This document shows, one piece after another, positions 10,476 through 36,405 of a stretch of DNA of 64,000 nucleotides. The position numbers and the translations under genes were made by a program. Under the pieces are notes generated by a model, which was given only the letters and a program-made list of their open reading frames with translations, did not search any database and was not told the origin of the DNA. The DNA comes from Straminergon stramineum (taxonomy: Eukaryota > Streptophyta > Bryopsida > Hypnales > Calliergonaceae): positions 11,224,501 to 11,288,500 of the forward strand of contig OY987273.1 of assembly GCA_963920665.1 (NCBI GenBank), given 5' to 3'. The first letter of the stretch is position 1; each line of letters begins with the position of its first letter.

Positions 10476-10879
10476 GTTTGTGAAGAGATCCACTTGTTAT
10501 ATTTGAGAATGTAAGATTACTTTTGGTTAGCGAGGAAGAATAAAAAAAATGTTAGGGAGAAATACTTATACAAAAATTGTTCACGCAAAAGATAATAGAA
10601 ATTCCTAATGATAAATAAATACAATGACATTTCATGTACTTTGAATTTGAATACATGTATACATGTAATTATAATTAAATAGAAAAATATATTGAATTCA
10701 ACGTAATGGAAGTTGGAACAAATGTAGTCAAAATCAAACCAAATCAAATTCCATATAAAATTTGAAATAAAATTTTAATGTCCTAAATCCCTAACACACA
10801 TAAGATGCAACATCTATTTAGAACTACTTCAAGAATCTTTGACTTTCAAAGCTTCTATAAACAAAGCTGCCATCTATAA

Positions 10880-14287: not shown

Positions 14288-16575
14288 TCGTCTTTCGCGC
14301 CTTCTTCTAACTACTCTTGCCTTGACTTGTTGGTGCCTGAATGGATGCCCTCAAAGTTGCTTTCGGAGTTGCCTTCACTGGAGTTGTTCTCAATGCTGCC
14401 CGGGTTTGGATCTTCTAGATTTCCGAGGGCAAGTCTTCCTCTTCCATGTCCTCCTCCTCTGATCCATATTGGTACTCCTCTTCTTCAAATTTCTCAATCT
14501 AAGTGACCTTTCTCTTGTCTTTTTCTCTTGGAGAGGTCTCATCCAACACGATGGTGGTCTTCTCCTACCTTAGTTGAGGTTACTGCATGTGTTCCAAGCT
14601 TTGCGGATGAGTCCGGGCCGGATTCATTAGTCCTCCAATCTGGTCCATTAGGTCACTCTGGATAAGCAACTAGGGTGTCTGAAGGGTTTCCTTTTCAGGA
14701 AGACGGATCATTGGAATTGGTGGTGATATGGTAACTTTTGGTGGCGCCAACTCTCGTGCTGTGTCTGGCCGCTTGGTTGGCTTCCGAACTATCTTCACGC
14801 TCCCCCGGATGGTCTTCTCCAACTGAGTTGAGAAGGGCTCGGTTGAATGCTGGAGAGTCTCCCTAGGGACTTTCGGTCTAGCCAGAAGTGGCAGTGATAT
14901 CGTTAATTTCACTAGAGTTTCCATGTCAAAGTGGATTTTTGGAAAGTGGGAAAAAATCCATGACACAGTCCGGATCAATCCGCCCCAAAAATTGGCGCAT
15001 CTCCTTCAGCACCGAATCCATCCTTGATGAGAAGTCGACTAGGATTCGAACTACCTTGGATCCAGTCAGATGTCCTTCCTCTATTGGTTGGTTCTGGACG
15101 AGGGAGGCCTTGACGACGAGCTCCGCAGGTCTATCCACCAGACCAGATAGGTTCTTGACAAGCTATAGAGCTTCCTTCTCCCTCTACTTTGCTATAGCTA
15201 ACTCCCCTTCTATCCAACCCAACCTAGCTTGAAGGTCAATCTTCTCCTTCCGTCCTTGCTCTTCCGGATTTGGAAGTTTCTTCATGGCGTCGAGTATATC
15301 CTCTGGCTCGACCTTCAACTCCTCGTTGATCCTTTTGAGAAGATCTGCCAAGGTCTCGTGGTACTCCTTTGCTTACAGCACCTAGTTGAATTCGGTTTTG
15401 AAGAACCTGGAAATGTCTTCCTCTGGCTTTTCCAGAACCTTTTCTAGAACAGGGAATTTCTCACGTTATGCTAGATCGATAGATTTCCTTCGTCTTCGAT
15501 CTACGAGCTGCTCCTCCTCTTCTAGCTCTTATTCTTCTTCAAATGCCGGCTCCTCTGCCTCCACTTTGTTCGTGAGGCCGTAATGCAAGCTTGTGGATCC
15601 GGTGTTATACTCTACCATTTCTGCATCACTCAAAAGTTCCGCATAGTGGTAGAGGTGGAACAGGTAAGGATCAATTGGGCTAGTCTTAGCCTTTCCTACA
15701 TTGGCAACAAGCTTGGAGACTACTGTTCTAATGACTTTTCCCTAGTTGACCGGTCTACCCTCCATTGCACCAAATATGGTGTTGGCTACCGTAACCATAA
15801 CCCGGGTAGGCTTTTCCGGATACAAGATTGGAATAAGAAACTCTAAGACCTACTTCTGCTTCCCATCTGGACAATCACTAATGGCATACCTTTCTTTAGA
15901 ATGGTCTGCATTCCTGAAATTTCCTACCATGAACTTATCTGTCCAGGAGGCTAATTCGAATCCCTTCCTAGGGAACCCGTATATATTGCCTAAACCTCAT
16001 CTGTCCAGGTTCCAGGTCGTCCTCTCACTGTTAGCTCATATTCATTAGATGAGAATGACCTCCTGCGGAAGACCGCGAGTTCCCACAAGTTCTAAGACTG
16101 TGGGAACTTGGCCACAGCAGCTCACTGACGTAGTCAGGCGACGACCACGTTGGATAATAATAATAAATTCATTTTTAAATATTTTTTTTGAAAAAAAATT
16201 TTAATTTTTTAATATTTTTTATTTTGTTTTTTAATTTTTTAATAATTTTTTTTAATTTTTTAATTTTTTTAATTTTTTAATAATTTTTTAATAATTTTAA
16301 ATTCTGGCCAGCCCTGGTTGGTTCCCAGCCTTGGGAACTGGCCTGAAACGGCCCTCCAGGGCAGCTGAATCTCATCTAATGTGATTCAAAGCTCCTATGA
16401 TGAGCTCTTGAATCATCCGATCATTCTTTATAGTCCATGGCCTAAGAAACAGACCAATATCCCCTATCATGCTTAGGTCGTCTTCTAATTGTGACCGGTC
16501 TCTCAGCCTTTCCGGAATGGTCGGACAAACCATTTGTGCAATAACTAAGGGTTTCTGGATATCTCCCTCCGCCAT
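14288..16575 (-). pseudogene. Gag-like ORF of TG...CA element copy 2, broken
   Basis: The ORF starts with ATG at 16575 (MAEGDIQKPLV) and can be followed against the homologous ORF at 38956-40944. It begins with a globular segment, then comes an acidic stretch, a long coiled coil containing EKEALQLVKNL-like heptads, and a Pro/Thr/Lys-rich basic tail. Copy 2 is split by a 335-bp insertion (16045-16381) right after DRMIQELIIGALNH, and by several stops. The globular segment with its 'VNWGKVI' block vaguely recalls plant transposon proteins of the PF20167 kind; that resemblance is weak. Confidence 0.55.
16045..16381. mobile_element. Short inverted-repeat insertion (MITE-like) inside copy 2
   Basis: The stretch is absent from the homologous position of the copy at 38535-42048. 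It is bounded by an inverted TTAGATGAGA / TCTCATCTAA pair. Inside, GC-rich hairpin shoulders (GTTCCCACAAG...TGTGGGAAC and GGTTCCCAGCCTTGGGAAC) flank a 150-bp T/A-only core built on ATTTTTTAAT steps. It carries no coding sequence. Confidence 0.6.
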
Positions 16576-17099
16576 CGAGAACTAGAACTAGGTGAACTGC
16601 TAAAACAATCACTAACTCACCACTCTTTCACTCAACTATACGAGCGCAAAACCACTACGGAAGAAAGAGGGAGGAGAAATGGGAGTGGTGGGGTTAAGTA
16701 CCCATCATCCTATTGACCGTTCCTAGTAGTAGACCGTTTACCCGTAACGGTTCCCTAGATTCCTAGACTGAAACTCTAGGCTATAGGCTATCGCTATCCG
16801 GTTTTTTAGTATCCTAATCCGTCCTAGATCCTTCTACAGAACAACTGGATCATCCTCTCAACTATAGTGCGATGTTTAGGCTAAGAGGATTCTAATTCTG
16901 TTTACCTATTGGAAATTTTGAAAAATTCTATAATATTATAAACCTATTTTATACTAATTCGGTGGATTCCGAGTTTTTGTCTTGCAACAGAATTGATTGA
17001 GTCCAACCAAGTGCATGTGTTGGGCAGATGAGTTATTAGTAATGTGAGTCTTTGTAATCAATTATCTATCTATAAGAACTAATATCCTAGCCTCTACCT

Positions 17100-17107
17100 T
17101 ATATGAG
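17100..17107. repeat. Left target-site duplication of giant hAT
   Basis: TATATGAG directly abuts the CAGGG terminus. The octamer outside the right terminus at 34738-34745 is TAGATGAG, 7 of 8 identical. Eight-base duplications are characteristic of the hAT superfamily. Confidence 0.7.
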
Positions 17108-17149
17108 CAGGGTTGACGAAAGTGAGCGTCCCAAGCAAAATCATGTCCA

Positions 17150-17266
17150 AGAATCGGCCGTTTGGCCGCCTGGACTTCGCGGATGCTGCATCTCCGGTGG
17201 GTAAAAAATGCCGTCCACAAATTTACCCTGGGTAAATGCGGTTGGGCGGACGGGCGGTCGCTAGTT
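17150..17266. promoter_or_regulatory. Left subterminal GACGG-type array and palindrome
   Basis: The array contains the dyads CGGCCGTTTGGCCG and TTTACCCTGGGTAAA (17222-17236), then GGGCGGACGGGCGG. Subterminal repeats of this kind bind the transposase in characterised hAT elements (Ac is the model). Here binding is inferred from position and symmetry only. Confidence 0.55.
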
Positions 17267-17726
17267 TTTAATACAAAGCTTGAAGTAAACCTTGATTCCT
17301 TGAATGCTTTTTACAATAACATATGGAGTTATGGACTACCGTTTGTAGTGTACTCAACCAAAAAAATTGTACACTATAATTGCAATTATGAATTATCAAA
17401 GGAAAGGATTAAAAAAAAAATTCAAAATTCTCTTCCCCTTGAAAACTACCAAATCTATGATTCTATGACAATCATGAAGTCCAAATTGTTGCATTATATA
17501 TGTATCCTGCAATGTATCATGCTTCATACAAAGAAAGAGGAACACAATCAATTTTGGGGGGACTTCTTCTTGGTTTTGCAATTAAAAAAAAATAATCATA
17601 TATTTACAACATCAATAAGGAAACTCCAAGTCTCCAATTGCAATGAAAGCTTCAGACAATCAATTGACATTACATGCTCGATGTATCATAAGCACCTAAA
17701 CACCTAAGCCTACATCCCTTGAATCT

Positions 17727-20700
17727 TTAAGGCTTGTAATCACTATCTCCTTTCACCTCAACCCCGCTACTATCACATCTAGTTCCCCATCGGTCGTCTT
17801 CATCGCTAGATGTCTCTTCCATGTCGTTTGATGAAGATTGTACAATTTTCACTCCTTTTTGTACTTGTATAGATGTGAATGATCTCATTGATCTACCGAT
17901 CTTCTCCATTTTGGCTCTTAATATAGCCTTACCAATGCCTTCCTTAAGGCTAGGGATTGTTTTCATTTTCTTTTTTGAAGAAACTTGATAGGTATCAAGT
18001 GGGGTTCTACCCACATTCGGTCTCTTGCTTGGAGAGGTAGCAAAGGGTTGCATTATTCTTTTTTTATGAGCTTTAATGGAGTCTTCACCCTGTGATGTCT
18101 CTGCTTTTGGCGGTCCTTGAATAATTAACTGCATTGCATTCAAAAACTGCGATGTGTGGCTTAATGATTTCAAGGAATGGCGTGGTGGATGGCCTCGATG
18201 TTGAATAAACATTAAAGCCAATGTCTCATCCTTATCATCATCATTGGTACATGATAAAATGGTTCGACTTGGATTGCCTCCGGAACCCATCTCTTTCGTA
18301 GGAGACAAATGTCTATTTCCAAGCCGTGATTTCCTTGAACCATCCAATGTCGTGGCATCGCTTTTAAATAGTGCACGTGGAGGAGTGCTACGTGGTGGTT
18401 CGGGAGAATCTTCCATGAGGTGCATTTTGTCAACACCATTGTTGACAAAAATTGGGTTGCTTGACTCCATCGAACATGCTTCAACATTGTCTTGTACTTC
18501 GTGTAGTTTGGCATTTCCAATATTTGCTTCCCCACATTTCTTGCTTGCCGATACCACTATTGACGCAACAATTGCATTGGACACGTTCACCTCACATCCT
18601 CCTTTGTCTTCATGTTGGTCATTTTTTTCTACCGCCATTATCGGGGATGGAGCATTGGAAATGGGAATCACTTCATCCTTTTCAAAACTCCCATCATTCA
18701 CAACCGTTGTCCTATTAGTCACCCTTATCTCTACATATGTATCCTCTATGTTTGGTAGAAGATTTCTACTATTCATGAATCTCGTCCATTCACAAATCTA
18801 GCTATCGAAGGTACATCATCATCAAGCCCCCAATCATCCTCATCTGATCGAAACTCATACATGTCTCCATCCACGACTCCGAAGTCTTCATTGTTTTGAT
18901 TAGGAGTCTCAAACATTTCTTCATCAGAATTGTGCATATTATAATTCACAGCATTTCTATCATCAAATACAGATTCATCATCCTCGTCTTTTGAGATAGG
19001 CCCTTTCAAAACTTCGGACTCCACGTTGTCATGGTACCACTTCTTTTCATCCTTCTCCTTCGATGAAGCTATGACTATGGAATTGGTGTATACATACACC
19101 AAATCGGTTGCTCTCTGTGGCCTCAACTTGTTTCGAGATTTGTTGTGAACAAAAGAGTAGCTACTCCAATTTCATTCACATGAAGACGATGACACCAGTT
19201 GGGCCAAAATCCTCTTTGCAATTGGAGCAATGAGCTTGCCACATGCACCCTCAAAATCCCACCAAGCATGTGCCGACAATTTCTGCTCAATCGGATCCAA
19301 CATGTCATGGAACAGAGGATCTCGATGTCGAAATGCTACAAATTCCTTCACTACGTCAGGATAAGTTCTCGGTTGACATATTTTCTTAATAACGCCCTTG
19401 CATGCATCTGTTGCATCTTGATCGTCAGCTAGTTCTTTATTGTGAAGAAGGTAAGGGTTCAAAAGAGCTCCTGCATAATGTAGATCGGTTTCTACCATTT
19501 CATGTCGCTTACCAAACGCCTTTTCGATAGGAATGGCTAAGTCCAAGGACAAACCAAAGGGCTCTTTTCGTAAAGAGAAGACATGCTTCTCTAAATTCCT
19601 CATGATGTGCAACACCTTGCCCATGCATGGTGTCTTCGCATCCAAATCACGTAGACCAAATACCACAAGAGCCATCAATTCTCGGAAATTAGTGGCACGG
19701 GCCCAAAAATGCTCATCTAAAATTGTCTTCTTCACCTCCCAAGACTCTATACGAGATTTTGCGTTCTTCGTGTCCCGTAACTTGAGTACATATTCTACGC
19801 ATTGTAGATCCACCACACTTTGTTGCAATCCAACCTTGACCTTCAACAAACAAGAAATCATGAAGAAATTGGAGGCAAATCTTGTTTTCACCGACATCAA
19901 TAAGCTATTCTTCGTTTCATGCTTTTGAAATATAGCTAGCAGCATATGCCGCAATCTGAAGAACTTCACAACTATTTGGGCCTTTTCCACTAGCTCCTTC
20001 AGCCATTCTTGCTTCCCCCAATCTTGAAGCAACAAATTCAAGGCGTGCACCACACAACCTTGAAAGAAAATGTGCGGATATTTACTCGACACCATATTCC
20101 ATGCTGCCGGATTTACAGGAGCGTTGTCTGCAGTCACTTGCACAACATTTGTGGGGCCTACTTGTTCTATAAACTTTTCCAAGACAGAGGCCAAAAAAGG
20201 AGCATTCTTTTCGATTCCACTTGTATCCACCGATCCTAAAAATTGCTCACCTGCAGAAGATACAAGCATGGCATTTATCAATGGTCGATTGGTAACCAAG
20301 CTCCATCCATCAATAGATAATGTTGCTCCAAACTTCCGAATGCTATCTTCGGTCCGACTATGAAGCTTTGTCTTGATGTTAGTCTTTGCTTGGTCAAGCA
20401 ATTTATGGCGTAAATCATGATACAATGGTGGAGGGTAGGGCCCACAGTACTCGGCTGTTTTTTTCACTACTTCTTTAAATGCCGGATTTCGAGCTACGGC
20501 AAATGGTATGTTTGCCGCATAGAAGAAATTGGCCCACACTGCATTCAAATTGCGTTTTGCTACGGAATCAAAGCCATCCACTAGACTACTCTGTCTTTGA
20601 GGTCTACTACCTGATGCCCTTGGAGTGTAACGATCACTGGATGTTTTTGTAGTTCAGTTTACTTCGGATCCTACACCAACAAATTCTTCCGGTGCTGCGC

Positions 20701-21019
20701 ATGAGTCCTCTTGAGTAGAACACACCATATCCCTCTCATTTGAAAAATCGCTCCTGACCATACCCGTGCTACCAACATCTACATTGTCAATGGTCAGTCT
20801 CTGCAGAAATGCCCCATTAGATCGAAGAAATAGGATTCGAACATCCGGCGTCAATTGCTAACAAAGACTCACTCTTGTATCATGAACACCTGATGGGCCT
20901 TCATATTCTAAATGGCTCAACATACGGCTTATCTTCTTCGCAAACACCAAGTTGCAAGCTTTGCACTTTACCTTACCGGTTGATGGGGTACCATACCAAC
21001 CAGACCAATCCTTGCTCAT
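17727..21019 (-). pseudogene. hAT transposase (BED, DUF659, dimerisation domain, long tail), broken
   Basis: ATG at 21019 opens a BED-like zinc finger (CKAC at residues 19-22, His36, His46). The RNase-H-like core follows: SIDGWS (first Asp about residue 237), TADNAPVN (Asp about 298) and VVHALNLLLQDWGK, i.e. DUF659. The C-terminal dimerisation block is SSSSCE(stop)NWS then YSFVHNKSRNKL. The frame is open except for TAG 20858-20860, TGA 20654-20656 and TGA 19172-19174; the last falls exactly at the Arg of the universal CERNW motif. A frameshift at about 18780-18790 separates an acidic linker from the tail (17727-18776). The tail's basic block (KKRIMQPFATSPSKRPNVGR) is also conserved in the copy at 60224-63643. 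At about 1095 codons it is far longer than the usual 600-800 residues, because of that roughly 430-residue extension. Confidence 0.85.
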
Positions 21020-21334
21020 AGTAGCAAGGCACAAATTTTAATTCCATATATTGGAATCAAATTCAAAATGTAAAAACTAGATGAACAATGTACAAATATA
21101 ATAAAAAATGAGTGCACAAAGCCTTGAAAATCAAGGCCCTCCCATCCACTGAACTATACATTACCAAGCAAGGGACACAAAAATTGTAGCTCCTAGCCCT
21201 TGGAAATCTTAGCGTTCAGTTTTCAAGAGTGCTCTCAAATGACTACTTTCCTACAGTTATAGTCTCCCAAATTGGCTTGACCGTTGGAGACCATTTTTGA
21301 ATCTACAAAACATGCAATCCGACGTCAGCTGATT

Positions 21335-21476
21335 TCGCGGCGGATGGGAGGACGGGCGGATAGAAATTGTGGACGGGTGGACGAGAGGTCGGGTGGACAG
21401 CTAGTTTAGGGTAGACGGGAGCTCTAGCGGATGGCTGGTTTAGCGCGGACGGGCGGACGGGCAAGGTAGATCGCGT
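21335..21476. promoter_or_regulatory. GACGG-rich array upstream of hAT transposase
   Basis: About ten GGACGGG / GGCGGA / GGACGGGTGG steps sit 315-460 bp upstream of the transposase ATG (21019), in otherwise AT-rich DNA. Similar arrays lie upstream of the three other genes of the element and at its ends. It could be a promoter module or a set of transposase-binding sites; which one cannot be told from sequence. Confidence 0.5.
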
Positions 21477-21979
21477 TCAATGCTTCTAGAGAGGTGGGAA
21501 ATAATATGGATTTATGGATGGAATGAGGAGATTTTTAAAAATTATGGTTTTGTCAAAGGGTCTTATAATTTAAAATTTCTAGATCAGTGTGAAAATAACA
21601 TACTTCACAAAAAGGTGTCCTTCATAAATCATAATAGCATGAATTTAAAAGAAAGAAAAACAAATGATTCATTCAAAGATATATATTGATATTTGTATAT
21701 ATGTAGAACTTCAAAACAAATCAAAATTCATCATGAGTACAATGAATTACTAGTAGTACTCAACCCTTATAACATTCAAGCCACACTCGGTATACTTCTA
21801 TACTATTAAACATAATAAAATAAGGAAGGACTCTCTTATATTTAAGAACCACTACTCTCTCCTAAATCGTGAGATGGCCCCTCCTTAGCCAAAAGTCTTG
21901 CACTCATTCGTTGAGTATTTGGCCCAGGACTGTAGACAACACCTCCTCCGGATCTAACCTCCATGTCAACCGTTGAAAA
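21477..21979. other. Spacer between transposase upstream region and RING gene
   Basis: AT-rich DNA, presumably 3' untranslated sequence of the RING-H2 gene, which is transcribed leftwards towards it. A 69-residue open frame on the plus strand here has no features and is considered chance. Confidence 0.4.
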
Positions 21980-24900
21980 CTATCGTTTGGTTTCCGGAGA
22001 GTCGTTATCATCATCCTCTCTCTTCCGTTTTGAGCTTCGCTTTGGAGACAAATCTACTTCTTCAACCTTCAAGGCCCTCAACGCAACATCCACTCGATCT
22101 ACGAACACATTGACCTGTTCGTCATTAGTTTCGATGGGTAACCCTATTGGTCGAAAATCGTCCAATAGAAACCCCCTCCATTCAGCTATGATGTCACCTA
22201 TCCTCTTGTCAAATGCCCCAGCTACCTCCACAAATGAATGCTCTGTAGTTGTTTCCCCATCTATTTCCACAACAGCACGAGCTTTGGCAGCTTCTTCCAA
22301 CTTTGACAAGAAAAGGGTTCTACCAATCAAAGTGTGATTATAAGCCCCGTATTGCTCATTGAACTCTTGAGCATGCTCCACCTCTATCCAAGTGTTGTTT
22401 GGCCCTTTCTTCACTTCTTTGTTGGGAAAGCGAAAAAACTTATTGTGTTGCACACTCCAATGGCCCCCCGTGTTGCGACAAAACAATTCACGAGCCTCGC
22501 CATCTCCAATATCCCAGGCTCACAACTCCACCTCTCTATTGACGGTCATCCACATGAAAGGATCCACTGGCTTTCCAAACTCCTCATACAATCCATGTCG
22601 GCATTCAATTGAATCCCATGTGAGAGGTCGCCTCCAATGCAAGAAATTTTGGAACTGGTATGGCCCTTGATCAAGAGGAAGGGTCCATCGGTTGTATTCG
22701 TGGCCGGGGGGCATATCTTCCAAGATCCCAAGCATTTCATAGAATCGAGGGCTCAGAGGAGAAGGACACTCAGCACAAACCGAACGAATGAGTGATGCTT
22801 TCACGATGCATGTCACGTGAAAAGTGTGGCGACATTGGCCCATGGTTAGGGCTCCTTCAAGGCCAAAAGGACCTTGGCAAAGGCTACAATGACTCTTCAA
22901 GATTCCTGGGGCTGGATCGCAAGCATGCACTACTGTCTTCTCTTTCTCCTTGATGTGCGCTGAAAGCGTGTTGTAAGGGACCTACCCTTCCTCTACTTCC
23001 AAGGCCCAATCAATGTGTGCAACATTGTCCTTCTTTGCATGGTTCAACTGCTCAAACATGTCATCCATGTCCCCCCAACATGTAATTTCGGTGGAACCCC
23101 TTGGATGTTCATCAAACACTTTCTTGAACCGAAGCAAAGAGGTCTCCACGGCATTGCATTCTTCATCCGACTTCATTGCAAATTTCATAAGCCCTTTCAT
23201 TGCTCGAGATACTACAGAGGGTTTGTCTTGGAGTTTTTGTACCCATGCCAACCATCGAGACTCTAATCCACTCTTCAGCATGCATTCCTCCATGCCCATG
23301 ATTCTTTGAAATCGGTCCAACTCCAACTCAACAAGGATTTTCTCTTGAATTGCTTCATCTAATTTCAACTATAGCTCGTCCACCTCACTGCCTTTCGTTT
23401 GCATCGGAGCATCTTGCAATGTAAGGGAAACATTAGGAATGATGGTCCGTACTACCTCTTTACATTTCTTGTCATTCCCAACCTCATCCAAATTCAAGAT
23501 GATGGACGCCTCCACCGCTTTTGCCTTCTCAAAAGGGAGAGTTGATCGCTCTCTTGACTTTCTTGCACAAATGGAATGTTCACGGAGTCCGTGGTAGGCC
23601 TACCCCTCTTCAACTCTTGTACTTCGAGCTCCAATTCTTTGATGCGCTTTCTTTGAACGACCTTGTTACAACATTCTTGCTCCATGTTTTTTTGTGATAG
23701 CTGTAGCTTCATTTCCAAGTCCTCACACTTCATCTTCATCCAATGAATGTCTTCCTCTAAGGCCATCAAACTTTTTAAGTTCATCACGCCACCTTCAAGA
23801 TTGGTGCCACTTTCTCGGTGAAATTGCAAAAAGCCAAGGCACTAGTCAATAATTCAAGTGCCATTTTTGAAAATTCCTCTGCCACATCCCTAACCCAAGG
23901 AGTAATTTTAGCTACCATTTGAGTTGAAGTTCTCAATTTGTATGCAGTTTGTGAAATAGTACCTCAGCCACCTTCTCCTACGGGTTGACTAGAGCTACCT
24001 GCCTCATTTTCGGGATTAGAATGAAGATGTTGTTCTGCTAGTACTCGCCAATGACTACAACATTCTAACAACTTTTCCAATTGATTGGCAGTGGGTATGG
24101 AACAAAGAATCTCCAATTGTGCCGAGCTTAAAGTTGCCAAATGTGGATGCCCGACAAGTCTTGCGCTTAATATTTGTCTTGGGCTCAACCTTCGACTTGG
24201 GCTTACTTTTTGATGCGAACTCAATATTCAAATTGGGCTCAAGGTTTGGCTTCGCCTTGGCATCGTTGGCAACTGAGAAATCGGAGTTGCATATTCCACC
24301 AAGCTCTCAAGAGCTTTACTATCTATGTAATCCTGAATTCTAGCATTGGTCCTTGCAAATTGTTCCTCATTGACCTCTCCATCAGGCAAAAAAGGTGACC
24401 CACGTTCTTCCACCAGTGTTTCTTTGTTTGCAGCCATGTCTAGACCGCCCAAGGTTGTTTCATTCGTTGTAGTTTCCTTGCTTGGAGCCATGCTTTGTTC
24501 ACCTAATGTTATCACATTCGGTGTGGATGTGAAGCACGTTGGAGGAGTTGCAAAAACCTCTCCGTCCACACCTCCCGATGAGACATTGCTCACTTCCGTA
24601 CAAGGTTGAGCCACTTCTGCGGGCCTTAATTGTATTGCATCACCTAAAACCTCGGAGACATTTGTTGTATGCGTAGTAGTATTTTTTAATACTTTTGGGG
24701 TCTTCGTTGGTTCACTTGGTTTTGCCTGAGAATTGTACAGATCGGGAATGTCTTTTTGATTGGGTTGTAGTAAAAGTGGAGAATCCACCTTGGATGGATA
24801 AGTGCTCCAATCTACCTTGTGGTTTAAAATGAGTTCTGCATACACCATGGACGCCACACTGTAATTTATGCATCCCTTACTCCTTGGCTTGTCCCCAAAT

Positions 24901-25223
24901 AGCGTCCGCCACACCTCCTCTAATCAATGCACAAAATGCTTATTGTTGCAATTACGTGGCTTACAACAAAAACCATGTGTATGCACCACGTGGCAATCCT
25001 GAGGCCACAACTTGTCAATGTGGTACATTTTAACATACTTCTTGCATGTTTTGAAGGTCCAATATTCCCCTTCCTCTTCCTCTCAACCACTCTCCGCTTT
25101 GATGTTTGGGTCATCTAAAATCTCATAGTAAAGCCCATGAGGGGCCCCCTTCACTTTAGTCCCTTTCTTTTTTTCACCTCCTGAAGTCCTCCCGTCGTTG
25201 GTAGGAACACCTTGATCGGCCAT
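21980..25223 (-). pseudogene. Coiled-coil RING-H2 protein carried by giant hAT, broken
   Basis: ATG at 25223 (MADQGVPTNDG). Near 25050-24790 comes the domain shared with 28438-29534: TCKKYVKMYHIDKLW, a Cys/His stretch (CCKPRNC...HFVH), then INYSVASMVYAELILNHKVDW. A Ser/Thr-rich linker with repeated LSPRQ/LSARL steps follows, then a coiled coil (about 23800-23600), a helical region, and a RING-H2 finger at 22870-22760 (CSLC, 14 residues, CRHTFHVTC, 10 residues, CAEC). A conserved-looking 200-residue end finishes with KRSSKRKRE. RING-H2 fingers usually recruit E2 enzymes for ubiquitin transfer. Lesions: TGA at 25083, 24924, 24228, 23964 and 22520; TAG at 23369 and 22982; two frame changes (about 23830 and 23540). 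The frame changes could be unrecognised introns. No homologue is known to me. Confidence 0.7.
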
Positions 25224-25434
25224 GATAGATGATTTGAATTTTTGAGCCCTTTGAAAAATAGTACCACGGCACGTGAGTAATGTGAGATGTGTATAAATAA
25301 GTAACAACGTAAATCAGCAATAGTAACAAAAGCTCAAGGACCCCCACTCTCCACCTTGTAGGAGCAACTGACACATAAAGCAGTAGTAGCACATCCAACC
25401 TGGCGTCGAAGGAGAGTAGAAGTGAGAGCAAATG

Positions 25435-25670
25435 AGGAGGCCGTCCCCCCATAAACCCGTCCGCCCCGAAGCGAACATGGACCTACGGTCCGCCGCCGCA
25501 AACGATCGCCGACCACTTCGGTGGCAGTCAAGCAGCTATCCATCCGCTTCGGACCGCGACCAAACCTCCCCTCCGCCACTCCCGACTATGGGCCGCTCCC
25601 AGACCATCCCGTCCACTCAAGCCGTCCGCCGTCGCCGACCAACCAGACGCAACACTATTCACCTCGCTGG
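25435..25670. promoter_or_regulatory. CCGTCCGCC-rich array upstream of the RING-H2 gene
   Basis: The array lies 210-450 bp upstream of the start at 25223. It contains CCGTCCGCCCCG, TACGGTCCGCCGCC, GATCGCCGACC, CCGTCCACTC and GCCGTCCGCCGTCGCC. The GC content jumps from about 35% to over 60%. Open frames running across it are by-products of composition, not genes. Confidence 0.5.
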
Positions 25671-27460
25671 GGACCCATCTGACCTCAGTCCACGAGCAGT
25701 CCTAAAGCATTGAATTTTGAGAAGGATCAATTCATGTACCGAAAAAACCTCTTCAATGCTAGAAGTATCGAATGTAGTATTAATGTAAGAAAAGGTAATT
25801 CCAGATATTCCTTCCTACATTTAAACATGCTCTCCAAACCCTATACCCTAAACCCTAAACCCTAACCCTCTAAAAAAAATCAAAATTATACAACCCTCAA
25901 TTGTACATACTGAATTTATAGCATTGCATGAATTTTCAACATTATTGATGCAATGTGTGGAATATGTTTTACCTATGAGGCTATGATTCCTTTGTAGTTT
26001 GGAATGCAACCATGACAATATAATGTAGATGTAGACCTTACTTAGTTTGTCAATTGTCATGTACTCGTGTTAGTATGTTACTCATGTAGATTTCAATTTT
26101 TCTTAAGATTTAGGACTTGAATTATCACTTTATTATGAGCCATTAAATACATGTGGATCATTCAATTATAACTTGGAGTGTGTCTTCAATTTTTGCTATT
26201 GAATGTATTCATAGTTTAGAACACCAATATGAATATACTAAAAGAAATTATATTATCTCATTATTCTATTATAACATTTATCGAATGTATAGGATGGTGC
26301 TAAAATGATTCAAGCATTTTAATGTAATGTGAAATGTTGTGGACAAGATTAAAGTAAGCATTTATACAACAAAATGAATTGAAAATTCATATCATACACA
26401 CTTTGACACTTATACCTATGTATACTTGTGTGCATCCTAAATTGTAAACCAATCATAAATTTATCACAACCCCAAAATATTAGAGCTTAGGTAATGTACA
26501 ATGTGATTGACCTTCAAATATGATGAGTCTTCAATTACAAGAAATTAGAAATGGTCATACTTCAATGATTACAAGTGTGTTTCATCTCAAAACTTTATTT
26601 CGAATAATAATATAGAGAGGTTCATAATATCATATCTTTTAAATTATAAATTTACATTATTGATTGAATTGCTTATGTAGTTATGTAGGCCTAGGATTTT
26701 GTAAAATCTTGAACCCCTAAAGCCTTCATGCTTTTTTTCCCATCAAATATCACTCAAAACTGCCATTTTGAATGCAAAGAGACAAAAATCTTTAAAATTG
26801 ATTTTTGGGCATATTTAACCAGAGGAATTTATACTAGACTAGTATAAAAATGTGTGAGTAATCTTGTCATCTTGAAAACTTTGAGTACATACATTGCATG
26901 GTATTTGCATTTAAAATAAGCCCCCAATTTTTTTTCTTCCATCTTGCCATATTAGATTTGTTGGGCGTCTCATTTTCTTCACTTTAGATTTTTGGCACTA
27001 ATGAATTTCATTTTAGAATATCTTGTGTTGAAAAATTTAACTCTTAAGTGAAGACTGAAGAATCTTGAACCAAAAATTTAGAAATAAATCATTTAATTGA
27101 GATCACATATCATAAGAGTCCAGTATAAGAGTGTAGGGCCTTTGGGAGTTTAGGGATTAATTATTTTCCTTGAAAGGCATGAAAAAGAATAATAAATTGA
27201 ACCCTGAAGGCTTTTGTTACAATCTGAACATTGAATTTCTTTTGCTATTAGTCAAAAAGTATTGTTGACATCACAAACTTGTACAAAAGCACCAATGTAA
27301 AACAAAATTTCTTTACACACTAATTTGAATTCTTTATTTACAAATCAAATGATTTTCCAAACAAGAGACTTTGGGATGTCACTTTTGATAGTTGTATCAA
27401 TTTAAGACCTCATGACATAACATATTAAAAATAATTTCTCTACTTTTCTTAATTCACCAT
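25671..27460. other. AT-rich spacer of the giant hAT
   Basis: No gene is supported on either strand. It contains the telomere-like tract at 25838-25869; otherwise it is AT-rich with no repeat of note. Confidence 0.5.
25838..25869. repeat. Interstitial telomere-like repeat (CCCTAAA)
   Basis: About four units of CCCTAAA with one variant (CCCTATA) and one short unit (CCCTAA). This is the plant telomeric heptamer on its C-rich strand. The tract is short and internal. Such tracts also occur as telo-boxes in plant promoters, but it lies about 600 bp from the nearest gene start. Confidence 0.7.
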
Positions 27461-27464
27461 GTAA

Positions 27465-28100
27465 TGCAATCTTTGCCTGTTGCCCTGTCTGTCCACCCAT
27501 CTCCACAAAGTTCAAAACACCTCTCCCGCCCGTCCACCCAACCACCAATTCAGAAATTGAAAAACTCCTCCCTCCCGAAGTCCCGCCCACCTCTCCCCTC
27601 CCATGCTCCTCTCCGTGCACCCGTCTGCCCGTCCGCCGTAAACCTAATACCAACTCCCAAACTCAAAAACGCCCTCCTCCCTCCCTCCCGCCCACCCGCC
27701 CATCCATTGTAAAGGAAACACGAATTCCGAAAGTCAAGAATGCCTCCCTCCCTCGGTCCCATGCTCCCTCCCACGCTCCTCTCCATCCGCCCGTCCGCGC
27801 TTCTGTAGTCACTATCCGAGCTTTTGCAGTCCCCGTCCACACGTCCCCATTCCCCGTCCCTAGTCCCCGTCCCCGTCCGCGCTGCTCCGTCCGCTGCTTG
27901 TCGGTGACCATGCGATCCAACGGACAATGGTTTCAGACCGCCCGATCTGTCCATCCACCTTCGTGCCATCCGATGCGGATGGTAGCGTCCGCATACCCTA
28001 AAGCACTGACCGCATAAATGCCGGCACGGTCGGCTCATTTCTTCACAATCGTTTCCCTTCCGGAGTGGGTGATCCAGTGCCTTCGGGAATCTGCGCGCCC
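27465..28100. promoter_or_regulatory. Long CCGTCC-rich array upstream of the Gly/Ser/Tyr gene
   Basis: About 600 bp of repeated CCCGCCCGTCC, CCGTCCGCC, CTCCCTCCCGCCC and CCCCGTCCCC steps end roughly 340 bp before the ATG at 28438. It is the largest of the arrays. Frames of 80-160 residues run through it on both strands but consist of low-complexity Arg/Gly or Pro/Ser runs, so I do not regard them as genes. Confidence 0.5.
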
Positions 28101-28437
28101 CTTCCGGCTTGGTGCGTGAACAATTGTGTTCATATTAACTTTTTTTTATCACATATAGGTTTGAGTGATTAGGGGGCTGCCCCAACTTATAAGTCTTTAA
28201 TTTTATGGACTTCATTTAGTGTTCTTAATTACTTGAACCATGTTTGAGTTGATTGGGTTGTCAGAAACTCAAGGTGTTCAAGTATACGGTTGATTTGGTT
28301 GTCAGTAATAGTAGGTGCAATTTGTTTTAATCCAAATTCTTTTTTTTCATTAGATACATTTAGCCAAAGCGAGCAGAAATTGTATTTAAACTTTGTAATC
28401 CTTTCGGTTCATTATTAATTGAGGTTTGGAGGTTATC

Positions 28438-29534
28438 ATGTCGCGCGGAAGTGGTGGAGGAAGTAAGAAGGGGAAATCGCAAGAGATGGATTGGAAAGAG
28501 TGGGGAGATGTAACTTGCGTTGGGAAGAAGGGATGGGAAAAGGAGCCAAGAAAGTATGGAACTACACAACATGCAAGAAGTATGTCAAAATGATGCACCT
28601 CTCCAAACTATGGTCACGTGATCGCGCAGAGGTGCAAGTTCATCGTTGGGAAGGACAAATGTCCACATGTAAGAGCGAACATTTTGTTTGCCACTACAAG
28701 GAGATAACATCTACATCAAGTTTACCAAGCTCTAAGCCAAACGTCATGAACTATTCAAACATGGCTATGATTTGGGTGAAGATAGTACTCCATAAAGAAG
28801 TAGATTGGCGCACAGTTGTAGGGTGCAATGTCAAGAATTTAACTCGCGAGGAAGCCATAATTCCTACTAACTGGGTTGGACCAAGCGATTGCATGCCGGA
28901 GTGGTCCAATCGAGGCTATGGAGGACTTCCTTTGGTCGTCTTGAAGGATGTTGAAGATGATTGGTCAGATGAAGATGATGTTGATGATGATCCAACACCC
29001 GTGACATTTGGTGAGAGACACGAACGTCAAGAAGATTGGGAAGACATTGAGTACCAACAACAAATGCAGGAGGCCATGTGCCGAAGCATGGAAGATCGGG
29101 GTCAGCAACATGATGGGTCCTACTACCATGACTATAATACACGTGGATCACAAGATGGGACAGGTGGTTCAAGTTATGGTAATGCCCCCCAAGTTGGCTC
29201 TCAAAGTATAGGAGGAAGCCATGGATCAACACACTATGGTCAGTATGGTGGTTCTAGCCAAGGAGGCTCTCAATAATACTCTGGATCGACTACACATGGT
29301 TCATATGGGCATCAGGGAGGCCCTTATTATGGTGGATCAAGTGAAAGAGGGTCCTAGGAAAGTGCTCCAATTCCTCCTCCAACCTTTGGAGGTCCTTCTT
29401 TTGAAAATGAATATGGACAAGGAGGTGCGTCAAGTGGATATGGTTACAACTATTTGGGTGGACCATATATTGGGGTATGTCCTTCAGGCCCAAATGACAA
29501 CAAGGATTCAAATTCGGATTCAAATTCAGAGTAA
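28438..29534 (+). pseudogene. Gly/Ser/Tyr-rich protein with the shared TCKKYVKM domain, broken
   Basis: ATG at 28438 opens MSRGSGGGSKKGKSQEMDW in one frame; near 28560 the homology moves to the next frame. That frame then reads TCKKYVKMMHLSKLW, a Cys/His segment (TCKSEHFVCHYKEI) and MNYSNMAMIWVKIVLHKEVDW, matching the N-terminal domain of the RING-H2 protein at 21980-25223. An acidic stretch (DDWSDEDDVDDDP) follows. The C-terminal part is dominated by Gly, Ser, Tyr and Gln (YGQYGGSSQGGSQ, YYGGSSERGS), of the prion-like or phase-separating sort, and ends DSNSDSNSE. TAA at 29274 and TAG at 29355 interrupt the frame; the final stop is TAA at 29532. Two related but distinct genes in one element suggest duplication of the N-terminal module. 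Function unknown. Confidence 0.65.
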
Positions 29535-29599
29535 AGTAGAATATGGTATTCTAGTCATCTTATGTTTGTTTTATTGTATGGTTCACTCATTGTAATGTA

Positions 29600-30580
29600 C
29601 ATAGACGGTAGAGTGCAGCAAATATAGTACAATGCTCTTGACGAGTTGTAATCACCTTTTTGTGATTTTGATAGAAATACATTGTATTTTTATATTTTAA
29701 TAAAGCGATATTTATGTCACGTAATTTATAGGATTTAATACCATTGATACATGACTATGGGTTAATGGATATTTGTGAAAATGAAAAATGTATTGGACCA
29801 CTTTCTTCAATATTTTCATTCCAATCATTCAATGTGAATAGGTGAATTGAAAATGCAAAGGATGTCCCAAATATACAATAGAGGTTTGTAGAATAGCGAG
29901 AACCACCATTTTAGTTCCATTTGCTATTAGAAATTGAATTGTAAACCCTAGAAGTTCGAAGGCTTTTTTCCATCCAAGACCATTTAGTGATTTAGAATTG
30001 CCATTTCAATTACAAAGAACTAGAAAATGTAGGAACAATGTTTTTGGCATGTTGGATTGTACGATTTTGTACTATAGCAATTTATGAATGTATAGAAGCA
30101 ATTTTAAAAACTTAACGCACATAGATTGTAAGATATTTGCATTCAAGGTGACTGAAACAAATTATTTTGCTATTTGCTTGACTAGATTTTTGGCTTCTAA
30201 TTATCGAAACAATAAATATTTCCACTTGTGAGTACTATTTTATAATTTTGTATGTTGAAGACTTGAAGAATTTAGATGAGAGCATGAGAACATAGGAAGA
30301 AAAATTCCACCAAAAGATGTTTAGTTTTTATTCATAAGAAGATTGATAAGTTGAGTATATTCAAGATCGAAACTAGAACATTATTAATTTTAAGATAAAA
30401 TGATGTAAACATGAGAATCTCAATAGTAAGAGTATTTCAACAAGCAAACTTCACCGGCTATCCCTCTATAAATTTTTTTCATTTCCATGATAGATGATTT
30501 ACTTAATTCTTATTTTCATTTGAAACTGAAATGTTCAATATGATACATATATTTGGCTTAGAGATGTTCAAGAGAAATTA
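29600..30580. other. AT-rich spacer downstream of the Gly/Ser/Tyr gene
   Basis: Probable 3' flank of the preceding gene: a TTTTAATAAAG signal lies near 29696. The rest shows no coding potential or repeat structure. Confidence 0.45.
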
Positions 30581-30584
30581 AAAT

Positions 30585-30930
30585 CTCCGATCGTAGGGAC
30601 GGTTTGCCATCCGTCGGATCGGACGAGCTGGCGGTATCCATGAAAAGCCGGCTGTCGGATCTGGCAGACACCGATCGCTCGATCGTCCTACTGATCAGAG
30701 GCCGGCTCAAGGCGGTCGGATGACCGTCCGCACGGTCGAACGGAAGATCGTCCACAGAATCGGACGGCCAAGACAAGGCGGACGGCCATCTCGAGGTAGT
30801 CGAAATGTGCCCGGACCATCGGACGGCTGTAACAAGGCGGATGGAATGCCGTCCGCATGATTGGATGGTTGCAATGGGGCGAACGATCGGACGACCGCGA
30901 TGAGGCGGACGGCCCGTCCGCAATTACTTT
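30585..30930. promoter_or_regulatory. CGGACGG/CCGTCCG array upstream of the kinase gene
   Basis: The array carries alternating, partly inverted GATCGGACG, CCGTCCGCACGG, GGACGGCCA and CGGACGACC steps, ending about 170 bp before the ATG at 31101. Unlike the other arrays it is rich in dyads because both orientations of the motif are mixed. Confidence 0.5.
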
Positions 30931-31100
30931 TGCCTTGCCCTTTGCGTTTTGCAAGTGTGAAGTGGAGAGCTTGGTGGTTTGTCCTCCATTGGTTCCTCTC
31001 CTCGAGAAGGCGGAAGTCTTATTTGGGGGCCTCATTATTGCCATTTTTTGTAGCGAACTTCGAAGTTTTAGTTACAAATTTCACGTATAAAAAATTTATC

Positions 31101-32585
31101 ATGATGCCAAGATCAAAGAAGGCGGCAAGGGGAAAACAAGTCGTACAAGAGGTGGCAAGTAAGGAAATTCCATCCGATGCATGCAAAGCATTCATGACCG
31201 AATGCATTGCAAAATTCTATGAATCGGCAACCATTGTGTCTCTTGACACAAAATATGTAAGATATGGAGAGGAGTGTCCATCCAAATTCAAGGCAAACAT
31301 GATGCAAAGAATATTGGATGCCTTATATGTTCCGCAATGGCAACATGAGACAGAGAAGAGGGGTTTCAACAATTGTTTGGAGAACACGGTGCATGATGTA
31401 TTGTGGAACGCTAATGTGGTTCTCACAAAATACGGCAAACAACACCGTGCAAATGATGAAGGCTTTGAGCAAGTCATTCTCAAAGCTCAATTGTTTATTG
31501 GGCGTTGCGCCCCATATGCGAAGAGGCGTAATAGATGAGGGTCATTGGGTTGGTGGACTAGCGATGAGGGTCTTGCTGAATTGGATATGGATAGATGTCA
31601 TCTTATAGCGCTTCCGGACACCGCATGGGTGATTCCCCAAGATGGCTTAATCATGAGGGGAGGATATGCAACAATTGAGAGGGTGAGAATTGAAGGATGT
31701 CCAAGGATAGCTCCATCTTGGGAGTTCGCAACAAAGATATCCAACCACCACGGTATGCAGCCTCAGCTTGCAAAGTTGGAACATCTAAATGAATCAATGG
31801 CAATGAGGATTCCACATTCAGGAGTCATAGGGTTTGTTGCAGTTCATGCAAGAACAAATGAAGGGTACTTGTATTGGTGGAATGGTGGAACACTTTGGCA
31901 AATGTTGAACCTGGATAACGATTATCTAGACAACATATATGTTCGGTTATAGTATTCGAACCCAAAAGAGTCCGATGTGACTAAAGCTTTTCATCTCGCT
32001 CGGTTTCGGAAGAAGCGCACCAAGCTTGCTTGGGCATTGGTGCATATCATGAATGCGGTACATGTGTCTAGACATCTACACAATGATATTTCTCCATACA
32101 ACATCATGTTTCATTATCCTGATGATGAATCACGTGTCTACATTAGCATTTGCGATTGGGGCATGACTACTGTAGCTACCGAACTAATGAAATCCTTGTA
32201 TACGTTCACATCTACAAGTGAAATGAACGAAGCTTTAACAAGGAGGTGGTGGGTGGATCCAAGCATTGCATATTTGCATAGAAGAGATGCAAATGTAGAA
32301 ATCATTCCACATTTATCACGTGCATCGAAGGAATATGTGATTGGTAAAATAGCTCAAAGGATCAATAAACAATGCATGTCACAAAACTACAACAGATTGC
32401 AACGGGAAACAAATGCAATGGCTATGTTTAGCCACCACCAATTGGGAATTGTACTTCACCAATACTTGGACCGGCTTTGTCAAAGAGGTGATGGTCATCA
32501 GGGTGGTTTGGCCCACATCATCAATCGGTTCACTAGCCAATTCAATTCGCCTATGCCAGATGAACACTTCCGACATTCATATTAG
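31101..32585 (+). pseudogene. Protein kinase carried by giant hAT, two in-frame stops
   Basis: The frame runs 494 codons from ATGATG at 31101 and is open except for TGA 31536-31538 and TAG 31950-31952. The N-terminal 145 codons are basic then helical, without known motifs. The kinase fold follows: a Gly-rich loop RGGYATIERVRI (residues 186-197), the ATP-anchoring Lys in WEFATKI (about 212), a catalytic loop HNDISPYN (Asp329, Asn334) and a metal-binding ICDWGM (Asp352, DWG in place of DFG). All residues needed for catalysis are in the sequence. The HND loop and DWG are unlike common plant receptor or CDK-type kinases, so this may be a divergent lineage or a captured gene. Absence of frameshifts suggests recent inactivation. 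Substrates unknown. Confidence 0.75.
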
Positions 32586-32589
32586 TAAT

Positions 32590-33029
32590 ATAGTGCAAGA
32601 GTGTACTATATAGAGTTTTATAAATATTTGATAAATGTAGAACTTCGGATTTATGCATGTAGATTGTTTAGTATATATGCACCCCTAGAGTATGTCAATA
32701 TATGTGAAATTAGACATACATTTTGAATTTTTCAATGTATTTGAATTGTTTTTTAATGAATATCAATTTTTGACAAATCAAGAATATCTCTTGTTTGAGT
32801 GCAAAGTGCAATATTTCTTCTTGAATGTAGATGGCTATTTAGTTGACAAGCTTGTATGACAAATTGCATAATGTATGATGTGTGGGTGCAAAAGTTTCTG
32901 AGCCCGTTCAATTTCATTTGGAATAAGTCTTGGAAGAAGACCATTTCATTTATGATATGGAATTACTTGGACCTTCTTAGAAGTTGTGTTCCAACAATTC
33001 ATTGATATTTGAATGATCATGACAACCCG
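32590..33029. other. AT-rich downstream flank of the kinase gene
   Basis: No gene is seen. It is likely 3' untranslated or spacer DNA of the giant element, up to the inserted TTAA-flanked MITE. Confidence 0.45.
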
Positions 33030-33674
33030 TTAACCCCTAAATGCCCAAGGCACGTGATTCTGGTGTTTTGAAAACTTTGAAGTTAAGTAAAACCCAACCA
33101 AATTGCTATTATTAGTAGTTTGTATTTTTGGAGAATTCTTTTTGAAGTCTAGTTTTAGGATCAAAAAGCCGATCTAAAAAATAAAGGATTATGATTTTTC
33201 TATAGAAGATTTAGTGCAAGGATGCCCATTGCAATCTTGACTTCCCGTAGTTTTGAGGGCTCTTGAAAATGAGCCTCAAATACACCAGATCTTGGAGGCA
33301 AAATCACATTAGAAATTCATTTAAAAAAATTGTAGAATAGATTTTGAAGAATCGTAAATTGATTGAGGTTGTGCATGCTGGGCCTTGGAACCTCATATTT
33401 TTTTAGTGACCAACTTTTTAGAGTTGACATGCAAAAAGTGAATTGAAAAATTTTCATAATTTTTACACCCTCATGATCAAACATTATAATCTTTCAATTT
33501 GTAAGTGATATTGTTATGTTTTCTTTTCCTATGTGATCTCTAACATGTCTAGTTTGAATTTGTATGGTTACAATTCAAAAGAAATTGGTACAACTTATGA
33601 AAATGTTGACTTTTTGTTCAATTTAGATCAAATTTCAAGGAGCTCCAAACAAGCCTTGGGCATTTAGGGGTTAA
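33030..33674. mobile_element. piggyBac-like MITE 1 (TTAA-flanked), inside the giant hAT
   Basis: TTAA (33030-33033) is followed by CCCCTAAATGCCCAAGGC, and the exact inverted copy GCCTTGGGCATTTAGGGG ends at 33670 and is followed by TTAA (33671-33674). This gives a perfect 18-bp inverted repeat bounded by TTAA, the duplication used by piggyBac transposases. The 637-bp interior is AT-rich and non-coding. Two relatives are at 48496-49030 and 58096-59061. Confidence 0.65.
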
Positions 33675-34490
33675 AGCAATTGTGGTTTTATTGTTTTAGT
33701 GTGTATACTTATAATGAATCAACTATGAAGAGACGTAATTAGTAAATTCATCACAAATTTACAATGAAGGATTTTAAAGTAATTTATATAAATGATTTGT
33801 TTGAAAAAGGAAGTTGTATCTTATTCACATGAAATCTTTGGAAGCAAACATGAAGCATGTGACCGTATGTCCGTATTTTTGTTGGCATGTAATTTTGAGA
33901 TTAAATTGATATATATATATTTTTTTTTTAAGAGAATTTTCCAGTAGCAAATGATTTTATCAATTCAAACAAAATTCTAACGTGATTCATGAAGTGAAAT
34001 CAAAAAACAAAGAGAGTGATTCAATTTTAGTGTTTTTTCAAAAAGGTTGAGGACTTTAGTACTTTTACGGTACTTGGATTTTTAAAAGCCTTTGGGTTTC
34101 CAATGTAGACCCTCAATTTTTTTTCATTGCATTGTTTTCATAAAATGAACAAAGGAAAATAGGAAATTAAGCTCTAAATGAATGGGTTACAAAATGTATG
34201 TGTGTCCAATATTTTCCTAAACCCAAACCCATAATTAATTTGTTATTTTGAGTACTGGTTTTTTTATATATTTATTAAAAAAATCCTTTGAAATTCTATT
34301 GTAGCACTTGAAAATGAATTACGAAAATAAATGACTTTTCTCTTTACAAATTTGTAAAGTGCAATGTTCGTTTTGTTCATTGCTAAAGACTCCTAGAAAT
34401 GAGCATGAATTGTACCAAATTTCAAAAACAAAATCGCATTAGAAATTATCTTAGAATAAAAAAATAAAGATAGAGACTAAATTCAGGGAG
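33675..34490. other. AT-rich spacer of the giant hAT, right part
   Basis: No open frame or known motif. A short TA microsatellite with an A/T run lies at about 33909-33930. Confidence 0.45.
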
Positions 34491-34494
34491 TCTT

Positions 34495-34735
34495 AAGCGG
34501 TTAGACGGGTTGGCGGATGGGCTCCAGAGACTGCGGACGGGCTCCAGAATCTGCGGACAGGGTCGCAGATGGGCGGATGGGATGGCGGACGGCGGTGCGG
34601 ACAAGGTCGGGAACGGGAAATTACCCTAGGGTAAAAACGAAATTTTCCGAATGTCACAAGATGTCCGAGGGGGTCGCGGACGTGGACACCGGACATCCGG
34701 ATGCTGGCGGCTACGTCAAGATGTCCTGTCAGCCC
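34495..34735. promoter_or_regulatory. Right subterminal GACGG array and palindrome
   Basis: GGCGGATGG, GCGGACGGGC and GGACGGCGG steps are followed by the palindrome TTACCCTAGGGTAA (34621-34634) and then ATGTCC/GGACAT steps up to the terminus. It mirrors the left end both in content and in spacing of the palindrome from the terminus. Confidence 0.6.
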
Positions 34736-34737
34736 TG

Positions 34738-34745
34738 TAGATGAG
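34738..34745. repeat. Right target-site duplication of giant hAT
   Basis: TAGATGAG directly follows the CCCTG terminus. It differs from the left octamer TATATGAG at one base, as expected for an old insertion. Confidence 0.7.
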
Positions 34746-34929
34746 GTTACCAAAAGTAGCTAAATATCATTGTAGATATTTCGAAAAATTCTTGAGTACT
34801 TATTATATTATTTTTGCAACATCGATGTTCTGACCTTCCAATCATGGTAATATTCTTGATCAGTAGGAGGAACTTGTAGCTAACTTGTTAGATCAAGAGC
34901 GAGATGTGTGTAGTGACGTTCAATCCAAG

Positions 34930-35465
34930 GCTCAATCTTATAGTACTCCAACTTCATCAATCTTCGAATACGTTTATTTCATACTTTTCTTTGTTTTCAT
35001 TTAATTATTAGCATTTCTCTTTAGCGTTTTGTGGATATGGGAATATGATGCTAGTCAAGAATGCTTTGAGATGATGCTTAAATTCAAAGTTAAGAATATG
35101 TACAATCATGATTAGTTTGTGTATCGTTACTCACTTTGTTCTCCTGATTGATGCAACACAAGAACATCAGTCCCAAGAGCTGGTAAACCTTAAAGTATTG
35201 TTGATCTATGGTGATGCTTGATCTTGTAGCTAGTATTCCAATTTCATCTTGTTTGTTTTCATTCAACTATTAGCAATTCTCTTGATTATTTTGTAGATGT
35301 AGAAGTATGATGCTAGACAAGAATGCTTTGAGATGATGTTTAAATTCAAAGTTAAGAATATGTACAATCACGATTAGTTTGTGTAGCGTTATTCACTTTG
35401 TTTTCTTTATATTGATGCAACAATACAATAGGAGTCCTAAGAATTGATCAACCTTATAGTACTTA
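34930..35465. repeat. Two-unit tandem duplication, period about 262 bp
   Basis: GATGCTAGTCAAGAATGC at 35047 recurs as GATGCTAGACAAGAATGC at 35309. The neighbouring boxes (GATGATGCTTAAATTC, AGAATATGTACAATCA, GATTAGTTTGTGT, ATTGATGCAACA) recur at the same offset. The units are roughly 85-90% alike by eye and non-coding. A few more related words before 34990 hint at a third, poorer unit. Confidence 0.75.
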
Positions 35466-36405
35466 TCCTCATGGGGAAGAGCAGCTAAGATCAGTGCATT
35501 TGAGGTGGAGAAATCTGAAATTATCAACCACGTGATACTAGATTGATGGGCAAAAGAGCTGGAGTGCCTAAACTATAGCATTGGGATTGCCTGCCTCGGT
35601 GTTATTCATCAAGCTAGCTAGCATTGAAGTCTGAAGTTCTTCAGTCACACACGTGTGCTTAAAGGGGAGCATAAATTTGGTATATTAATATTTCTTTACC
35701 CTCCAAGAAGTAGAGTAAGTGCCATCAAATTTTTGTCTGTGAATGTCTTGTGTTGATTTTTGAGTATGCAAGTTCGAGTGTGTGATGGTGCATTGTAATT
35801 AAATTTGGATCAATCTTTGCTAACTATTAGGAACTGATTTAAATGATTAGGAGATTTCATGTATTAGTATCTTGTTTTGAAGTTCAGTGGAATCTCCTCA
35901 AAGATGGCAATTTATTATTAATTATCAGCTTTCAAAGAATTGTTACATATTCTGAAAGGTCTGTCATTCTACAATACATGTTGCCTTGTTGCCATATGAA
36001 GTCTTCAGTTGCCCTCAAAGTACTACTATAGCTAGTTCTATGCATGATTGGATCAATGAATGAAAAAGTGTTGAAATTGTGAGTTGAATATATATACTAC
36101 AATTTTCATAATTATTCAACTTTAGTGAATGTTTAGATCTATATAAACTTTAACTCAAATTTGTTGACATTTTGATATTGAGATTTTAAATATCAATCAA
36201 TACCTTATATAATAACTATATATGAATTAACAACAACTTTTCAGAATGTTGAAAGTAGATATATCCTAAATCAACCCTAGTCTCTTATGAACTAATATTA
36301 TGTCATATGTGGATGTATGTTTCAGAGTCCTTGTGTAATTATTTGTGAAGAGGTACAGCCAGTGGGTATTGAAGAAGATTTTCGATCAATCTCAAGCTGC
36401 AAGCT
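35466..36405. other. Non-coding stretch before the DDE element
   Basis: AT-rich, no supported gene. It likely contains the 5' end or leader of the element whose coding region starts at 36406, but no terminal inverted repeat was found. Confidence 0.45.

Follow-up and report, generated by a model that had tools for sequence, protein, structure and literature searches.

A 64-kb window of the genome of the moss Straminergon stramineum (contig OY987273.1 of assembly GCA_963920665.1, positions 11,224,501 to 11,288,500; all coordinates below are counted from the first letter of this stretch) raises the question of whether a plant hAT transposon can hold a whole set of genes. Plant hAT elements usually measure a few kilobases and carry one gene. 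Between positions 17108 and 34737 of the window, however, a hAT transposase gene is accompanied by three others, for a RING-H2 protein, a Gly/Ser/Tyr-rich (GSY) protein and a protein-kinase-like protein. A first-pass annotation, made from the DNA letters only, had proposed that this is one mobile unit, and in our analysis the ends, the palindromes, a short motif and the CpG-rich patches all agree on it. The anatomy of this single copy gives good support to one 17.6-kb unit containing a transposase and three more genes. We read the locus as one decayed hAT copy with three accessory genes, in which a motif would protect the CpG-rich parts of the element, and we put the probability of this reading, mechanism included, at about three in four.

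The outer ends were considered first. The left terminal inverted repeat (TIR), CAGGGTTGAC (17108-17117, + strand), and the right one, CAGGGCTGAC (34728-34737, - strand, read inwards from 34737), are identical at 9 of 10 positions. They are flanked by octamers, TATATGAG on the left (17100-17107) and TAGATGAG on the right (34738-34745), which agree at 7 of 8 positions and represent a putative target-site duplication. We ranked all pairs of exact CAGGG/CCCTG ends spaced 300-40,000 bp apart in the whole window. The 17108/34737 pair came top of the 117 pairs, with 16/18 matches vs 13 for the runner-up, and the ends and octamers proposed at 17.1 and 34.7 kb were hence borne out.

It is the palindromes and the element-wide motif CGTCCGC that carry the case for one unit. 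A TTACCC-T-GGGTAA palindrome lies at 17223-17235 and a TTACCC-TA-GGGTAA palindrome at 34621-34634, and these are the only two TTACCC-GGGTAA palindromes across the 64 kb when at most 1 mismatch and a spacer of 0-8 are allowed. Loosening the search to 2 mismatches, with a spacer of 1-2, added a single one, at 50417. The matching palindromes had been placed 103-114 bp inside the ends; their presence and the 103 bp on the right hold, and the left distance needs correcting to 115 bp. As for CGTCCGC, searched on both strands, all 19 sites of the window fall inside the element (span 17246-34676). A local Markov model predicted a mean of 0.9 sites in the element, with a maximum of 4 over 200 simulations, and a mean of 0.7 in the 41.8 kb outside, where 0 were observed. 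With the looser motif GCGGACGG, one mismatch allowed, 43 of 52 sites were still in the element. Within the window, one CGTCCGC is located in a gene (24903, RING gene) and the other 18 lie outside the gene bodies as drawn.

The motif recurs in six CpG-rich patches, whose limits we drew by eye. Two of them occupy the ends of the element, namely a left-end patch (17108-17280; GC 0.53, CpG observed/expected 1.16, one CGTCCGC) and a right-end CpG island (34481-34737, three CGTCCGC). The four others are CpG islands situated upstream of the transposase gene (21261-21520, two CGTCCGC), the RING gene (25321-25760, two), the GSY gene (27481-28140, five) and the kinase gene (30561-31020, five). Across the six patches the CpG observed/expected ratio was 1.06-1.43 and TpG/CpA was 0.77-1.03, that is, without excess. 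In contrast, CpG ratios were 0.13-0.67 and TpG/CpA was 1.28-1.50 in seven other segments of the element, taken from genes and spacers. For comparison, CpG observed/expected was 0.41 and 0.35 in the flanks (1-17107 and 34738-51000, respectively; TpG/CpA 1.07 and 1.21) and 0.87 in a gene region at 51-58 kb. An unbiased scan in 200-bp windows, which the left-end patch fails, found ten island-like stretches. Five of these are in the element and all five contain CGTCCGC; the remaining five, at 51.2-58.0 kb, contain none. We also noticed telomere-like AAACCCTA repeats at 25836-25864, which adjoin the RING-gene CpG island on its upstream side.

The transposase gene (17727-21019, - strand) encodes a DUF659 protein (Pfam E 1.6e-36) with a BED-like N-terminus, recognized by eye, and a long C-terminal tail. 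Its translation shows DGW, ADN, C-x-x-H and SSSCE, which we take to be motifs typical of hAT transposases; its profile found no match among solved structures. A second, related and more decayed hAT (DUF659 E 6e-21) occupies 59485-64000, where its 5' end and transposase are visible before the edge of the window cuts off the rest. Its start was set by alignment at CAAGGTTGTC, the terminal decamer matching that of the 17.6-kb element at 8 of 10 positions. The two 5' ends align at the same offset, with a best block of 19/20 bases and a score of 35 vs a shuffled maximum of 24. The two transposases are 61% identical; over 485 codons, the ratio of nonsynonymous to synonymous substitutions (dN/dS) is 0.23, with a dS of 1.23, which indicates that the transposase was under constraint between both hATs. 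The long C-terminal tail is partly conserved in the second one. No CGTCCGC occurs in the second hAT within the window (59485-64000), and a GGCGGA/GGACGG patch is recognizable near the window edge (63941-63957). A neighbor with a 5' end of the same family lends support to the reading of a single unit, as judged from the alignment, and is not decisive. Long TIRs were also considered and rejected, since outside the TIR and palindrome the two ends of the element are unlike, and no match exists between the right end and the second hAT's 5' end.

The distribution of motif and CpG suggests how the element might have worked. One or several element-encoded proteins may bind the motif clusters and thereby hold off methylation at ends and promoters so that these stay active, in the manner of VANC proteins in another plant transposon (see below). 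Candidates for the binder would be a domain common to the RING and GSY proteins or the transposase itself. Alternatively, the patches could stem from the expansion of tandem GC-rich repeats or from a GC-biased process instead of protection from methylation, an origin that we regard as possible, albeit the less likely one, and that concerns the protection step only. By eye, the patches do resemble degenerate tandem GGACGG repeats. Moreover, the 5' end of the second hAT shows CpG loss (observed/expected 0.73, TpG/CpA 1.35), and the left flank is CpG-poor with little TpG/CpA excess (1.07), two observations that fit poorly with protection. What speaks for protection is the difference reported above between the seven neighboring segments, in which CpG loss goes with a TpG/CpA excess, and the six patches, which show neither.

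We then turn to the three accessory genes. The RING-H2 gene (21980-25223, - strand) has its frame broken by several stops. Its product combines an N-terminal domain of the GSY type with a RING-H2 finger, and its C-terminal part is conserved; the finger (Pfam E 1e-5) falls just under the curated cutoffs here and exceeds them in a relative, P0015. The GSY gene (28438-29534, + strand), in which the frame changes once and stops occur, encodes an N-terminal domain of the RING-gene type, an acidic middle and a Gly/Ser/Tyr-rich tail, and its open reading frame (ORF) had no Pfam match. That the two N-termini are related was apparent from a GSY relative, P0036, which is 38% identical to the RING-gene N-terminus over 134 residues (E 3e-19), and from the GSY profile, which matched the RING N-terminus with an hhalign probability of 99.3. 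The best Pfam candidate for this common domain is zf-C3HC (E 0.0054), a below-cutoff hint only. The protein-kinase-like gene (31101-32585, + strand) contains two in-frame stops and retains HND and DWG motifs; its Pfam match (E 8.5e-6) is below the curated cutoff in this copy, and a search of solved structures with its profile gave weak matches to six kinase chains (best E 0.007). Structure predictions were poor, with a mean predicted local distance difference test score (pLDDT) of 35.0 for P0036 and 42.9 for a kinase relative, P0005. Both left genes point leftward and both right genes rightward. Beyond the kinase gene, at 33030-33674, we observed a 22-bp perfect inverted repeat with arms ~600 bp apart, possibly a nested miniature inverted-repeat transposable element.

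Could the locus then be a composite, made of an ordinary 4-kb hAT on the left and separate RING, GSY and kinase elements, with the right end left by another hAT insertion of the same family? The stretch 17108-21520, with the transposase gene and its upstream patch, would alone make a hAT of normal size, the second hAT shows its transposase part only before the window edge, the two ends are similar in the TIR and palindrome only, and the internal 22-bp inverted repeat hints at a nested insertion. However, no separate small elements emerged on searching the interior for ends and palindromes. That each gene might have its own ends had been named at the outset as the outcome that would undo the single unit. 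Inside the element, no site had fewer than 2 mismatches to CAGGGYTGAC (17 interior sites had exactly 2) and no palindrome was present. In addition, it is across the outer ends that the octamers match at 7 of 8 positions, a single motif runs throughout the patches and is absent from the rest of the window, the RING and GSY proteins have a domain in common, and the left pair of genes points leftward and the right pair rightward. We therefore judge a composite origin improbable.

Protein searches returned 13 relatives of the kinase, 22 of the RING protein and 9 of the GSY protein. Those of the kinase and GSY proteins are 53-92% identical and come from contigs no longer than 3.2 kb; 6 of the 22 RING relatives are on contigs of at least 17.8 kb. 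Among the nine GSY relatives, five have one uninterrupted reading frame of 357-367 amino acids each, so apparently intact GSY members exist. One RING relative comes from the moss Ceratodon purpureus (M758_UG082900; 49% identity over 80% of the query, in a cluster of 107 sequences). It is annotated as a hypothetical protein and, judging from its name, would be located on the U sex chromosome. This relative, along with the GYF/CCCH and SWIB/Plus-3 ORFs of the window, points to a plant host, probably a moss. No relatives were found in viral contigs scanned with the kinase, RING and transposase, nor in contigs of prokaryote genomes scanned with RING. The term cargo, used in the first-pass annotation, now seems doubtful, because the RING/GSY paralogy and the common patches are more suggestive of accessory genes resident in the element than of passengers. 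Plant TIR transposons, hAT included, do capture genes, as described in the available part of PMC8903248, but that a hAT captured host genes without a role in transposition is the least probable origin here and a rather remote one, since the accessory genes are recurring divergent families, as the kinase and GSY identities indicate, the patches upstream of them are the same as those at the element ends, and Pack elements are, in that same part of PMC8903248, by definition non-autonomous and made with gene fragments.

Several points weigh against one 17.6-kb hAT unit. The TIR is 10 bp long with one mismatch, and the octamers also have one mismatch. Without the CAGGG condition, we estimate that a TIR matching at 9 of 10 positions plus an octamer matching at 7 of 8 is expected by chance in 64 kb, so that TIR and octamers are insufficient by themselves for the claim. 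The similarity of the left and right ends does not extend past the 10-bp TIR and palindrome: their local score, 23, is also the highest value reached in 300 shuffles. The hAT dimerization region of the transposase gave a weak match, below cutoff (E 0.12). In this copy, the reading frame of each of the four genes is disrupted, by in-frame stops or by shifts of frame; introns could account for some of these breaks and not for the stops within regions aligned to relatives. Finally, four genes between one pair of hAT ends are known from this copy alone, and the window stops in the second hAT before its accessory genes would start.

If the locus is indeed one hAT unit, the transposase would cut and paste the entire 17.6 kb via the terminal repeats and palindromes, and the motif array may also be recognized. 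The RING and kinase proteins might target host proteins that serve in silencing or repair. A further-reaching proposal is that the element belongs to an undescribed lineage of giant autonomous plant hATs, spread among bryophytes, with its own anti-silencing set that keeps its CpG islands free of methylation. We hold this only tentatively and think it rather unlikely in full. The set would then consist of two proteins with a motif-reading domain, one of them RING-H2 E3-like, plus the kinase, and it is conceivable, if somewhat doubtful, that it forms an independent counterpart of VANC.

How does the element compare with known systems? Its DUF659 core and short CAGGG TIRs place it in the hAT superfamily, near plant DUF659-type hATs (Ac/Tam3 relatives), and its flanking octamers (7/8) may correspond to their 8-bp target duplication. 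It differs from them by its 17.6 kb, its three extra genes and its CpG-rich motif patches. A Pack-TYPE (Pack-hAT) element was ruled out by the transposase gene between the same ends. Lanisha elements, reportedly from the Ceratodon genome paper, were considered too and set aside. The available part of PMC12730594 likens Lanisha to EnSpm. The same part describes TET+ hAT7 elements of rust fungi, hAT transposons that carry a gene for a TET/JBP dioxygenase, an enzyme discussed there in relation to DNA methylation. Like the moss element, these have an accessory gene besides the transposase; unlike it, they are fungal, with 7-bp target duplications and a different accessory gene, and RING, GSY or kinase genes do not figure in that part of the text. 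ToxhAT, from wheat-pathogen fungi, is given in the accessible part of PMC6737239 as 14.3 kb with eight genes, 74-bp TIRs and no target duplications; its name derives from an adjoining hAT-like transposase gene and it is described there as composite. It is likewise a multi-gene unit bounded by TIRs, with unrelated genes. The moss element thus has extra genes inside one pair of hAT ends, as in accessory-gene hATs, in one copy. Regarding novelty, the original idea that a gene-carrying hAT would be of a new kind holds in part: the literature search turned up no plant hAT with several genes, and fungal hATs with accessory genes have been published. That search covered open-licence PubMed Central texts, in which the titles and abstract beginnings among the matches listed mentioned no such element, and the term hAT is absent from the main text of a 2026 review on plant gene capture (PMC13317346).

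The closest likeness in working mode may be with VANDAL21 of Arabidopsis. According to the available parts of PMC5735166 and PMC13317346, VANC21 binds a 9-bp motif arrayed in VANDAL21 outside the coding parts, and removes methylation. Both VANDAL21 and the moss element are multi-gene plant DNA transposons, and within this window the CGTCCGC sites of the latter also cluster mostly outside its genes. However, VANDAL21 belongs to the Mutator-like element (MULE) superfamily and has different proteins, and motif binding and demethylation, demonstrated for VANC in those sources, are what we infer for the moss element. Because of the MULE affiliation and the different proteins, the element is not a VANDAL/VANC member; it possibly works in a similar mode outside that system. 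Pfam, run on the ORFs and on those relatives that were tried, showed no MULE domain, and no search with a VANC sequence was made.

If our reading is true, plant cut-and-paste hATs can exceed their usual size several-fold with a standing set of accessory genes, and a second independent candidate would stand beside VANDAL/VANC for transposon ends and promoters that are motif-marked and kept CpG-rich. Should an element of this kind also contain M758_UG082900, transposon genes would be passing for host genes in the gene lists of mosses, possibly in those of a sex chromosome.

As for the surroundings, two inverted arms of ~3.5 kb bracket the element (13234-16943 and 38570-41997) and are 75-87% alike in the reported pieces. 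Five ORFs in these arms had no Pfam match above cutoff, and a third, partial copy of the arm lies near 7860-8680. By eye, an ORF series at 41968-44440 and an ORF at 9685-10059 look like DNA-transposase remnants; the ORFs at 9685-10059, 42665-43363 and 43364-43987 had no Pfam match. Further along, 51255-57677 (- strand) holds one or more probable host genes, with one ORF containing GYF and CCCH domains and another containing SWIB and Plus-3.

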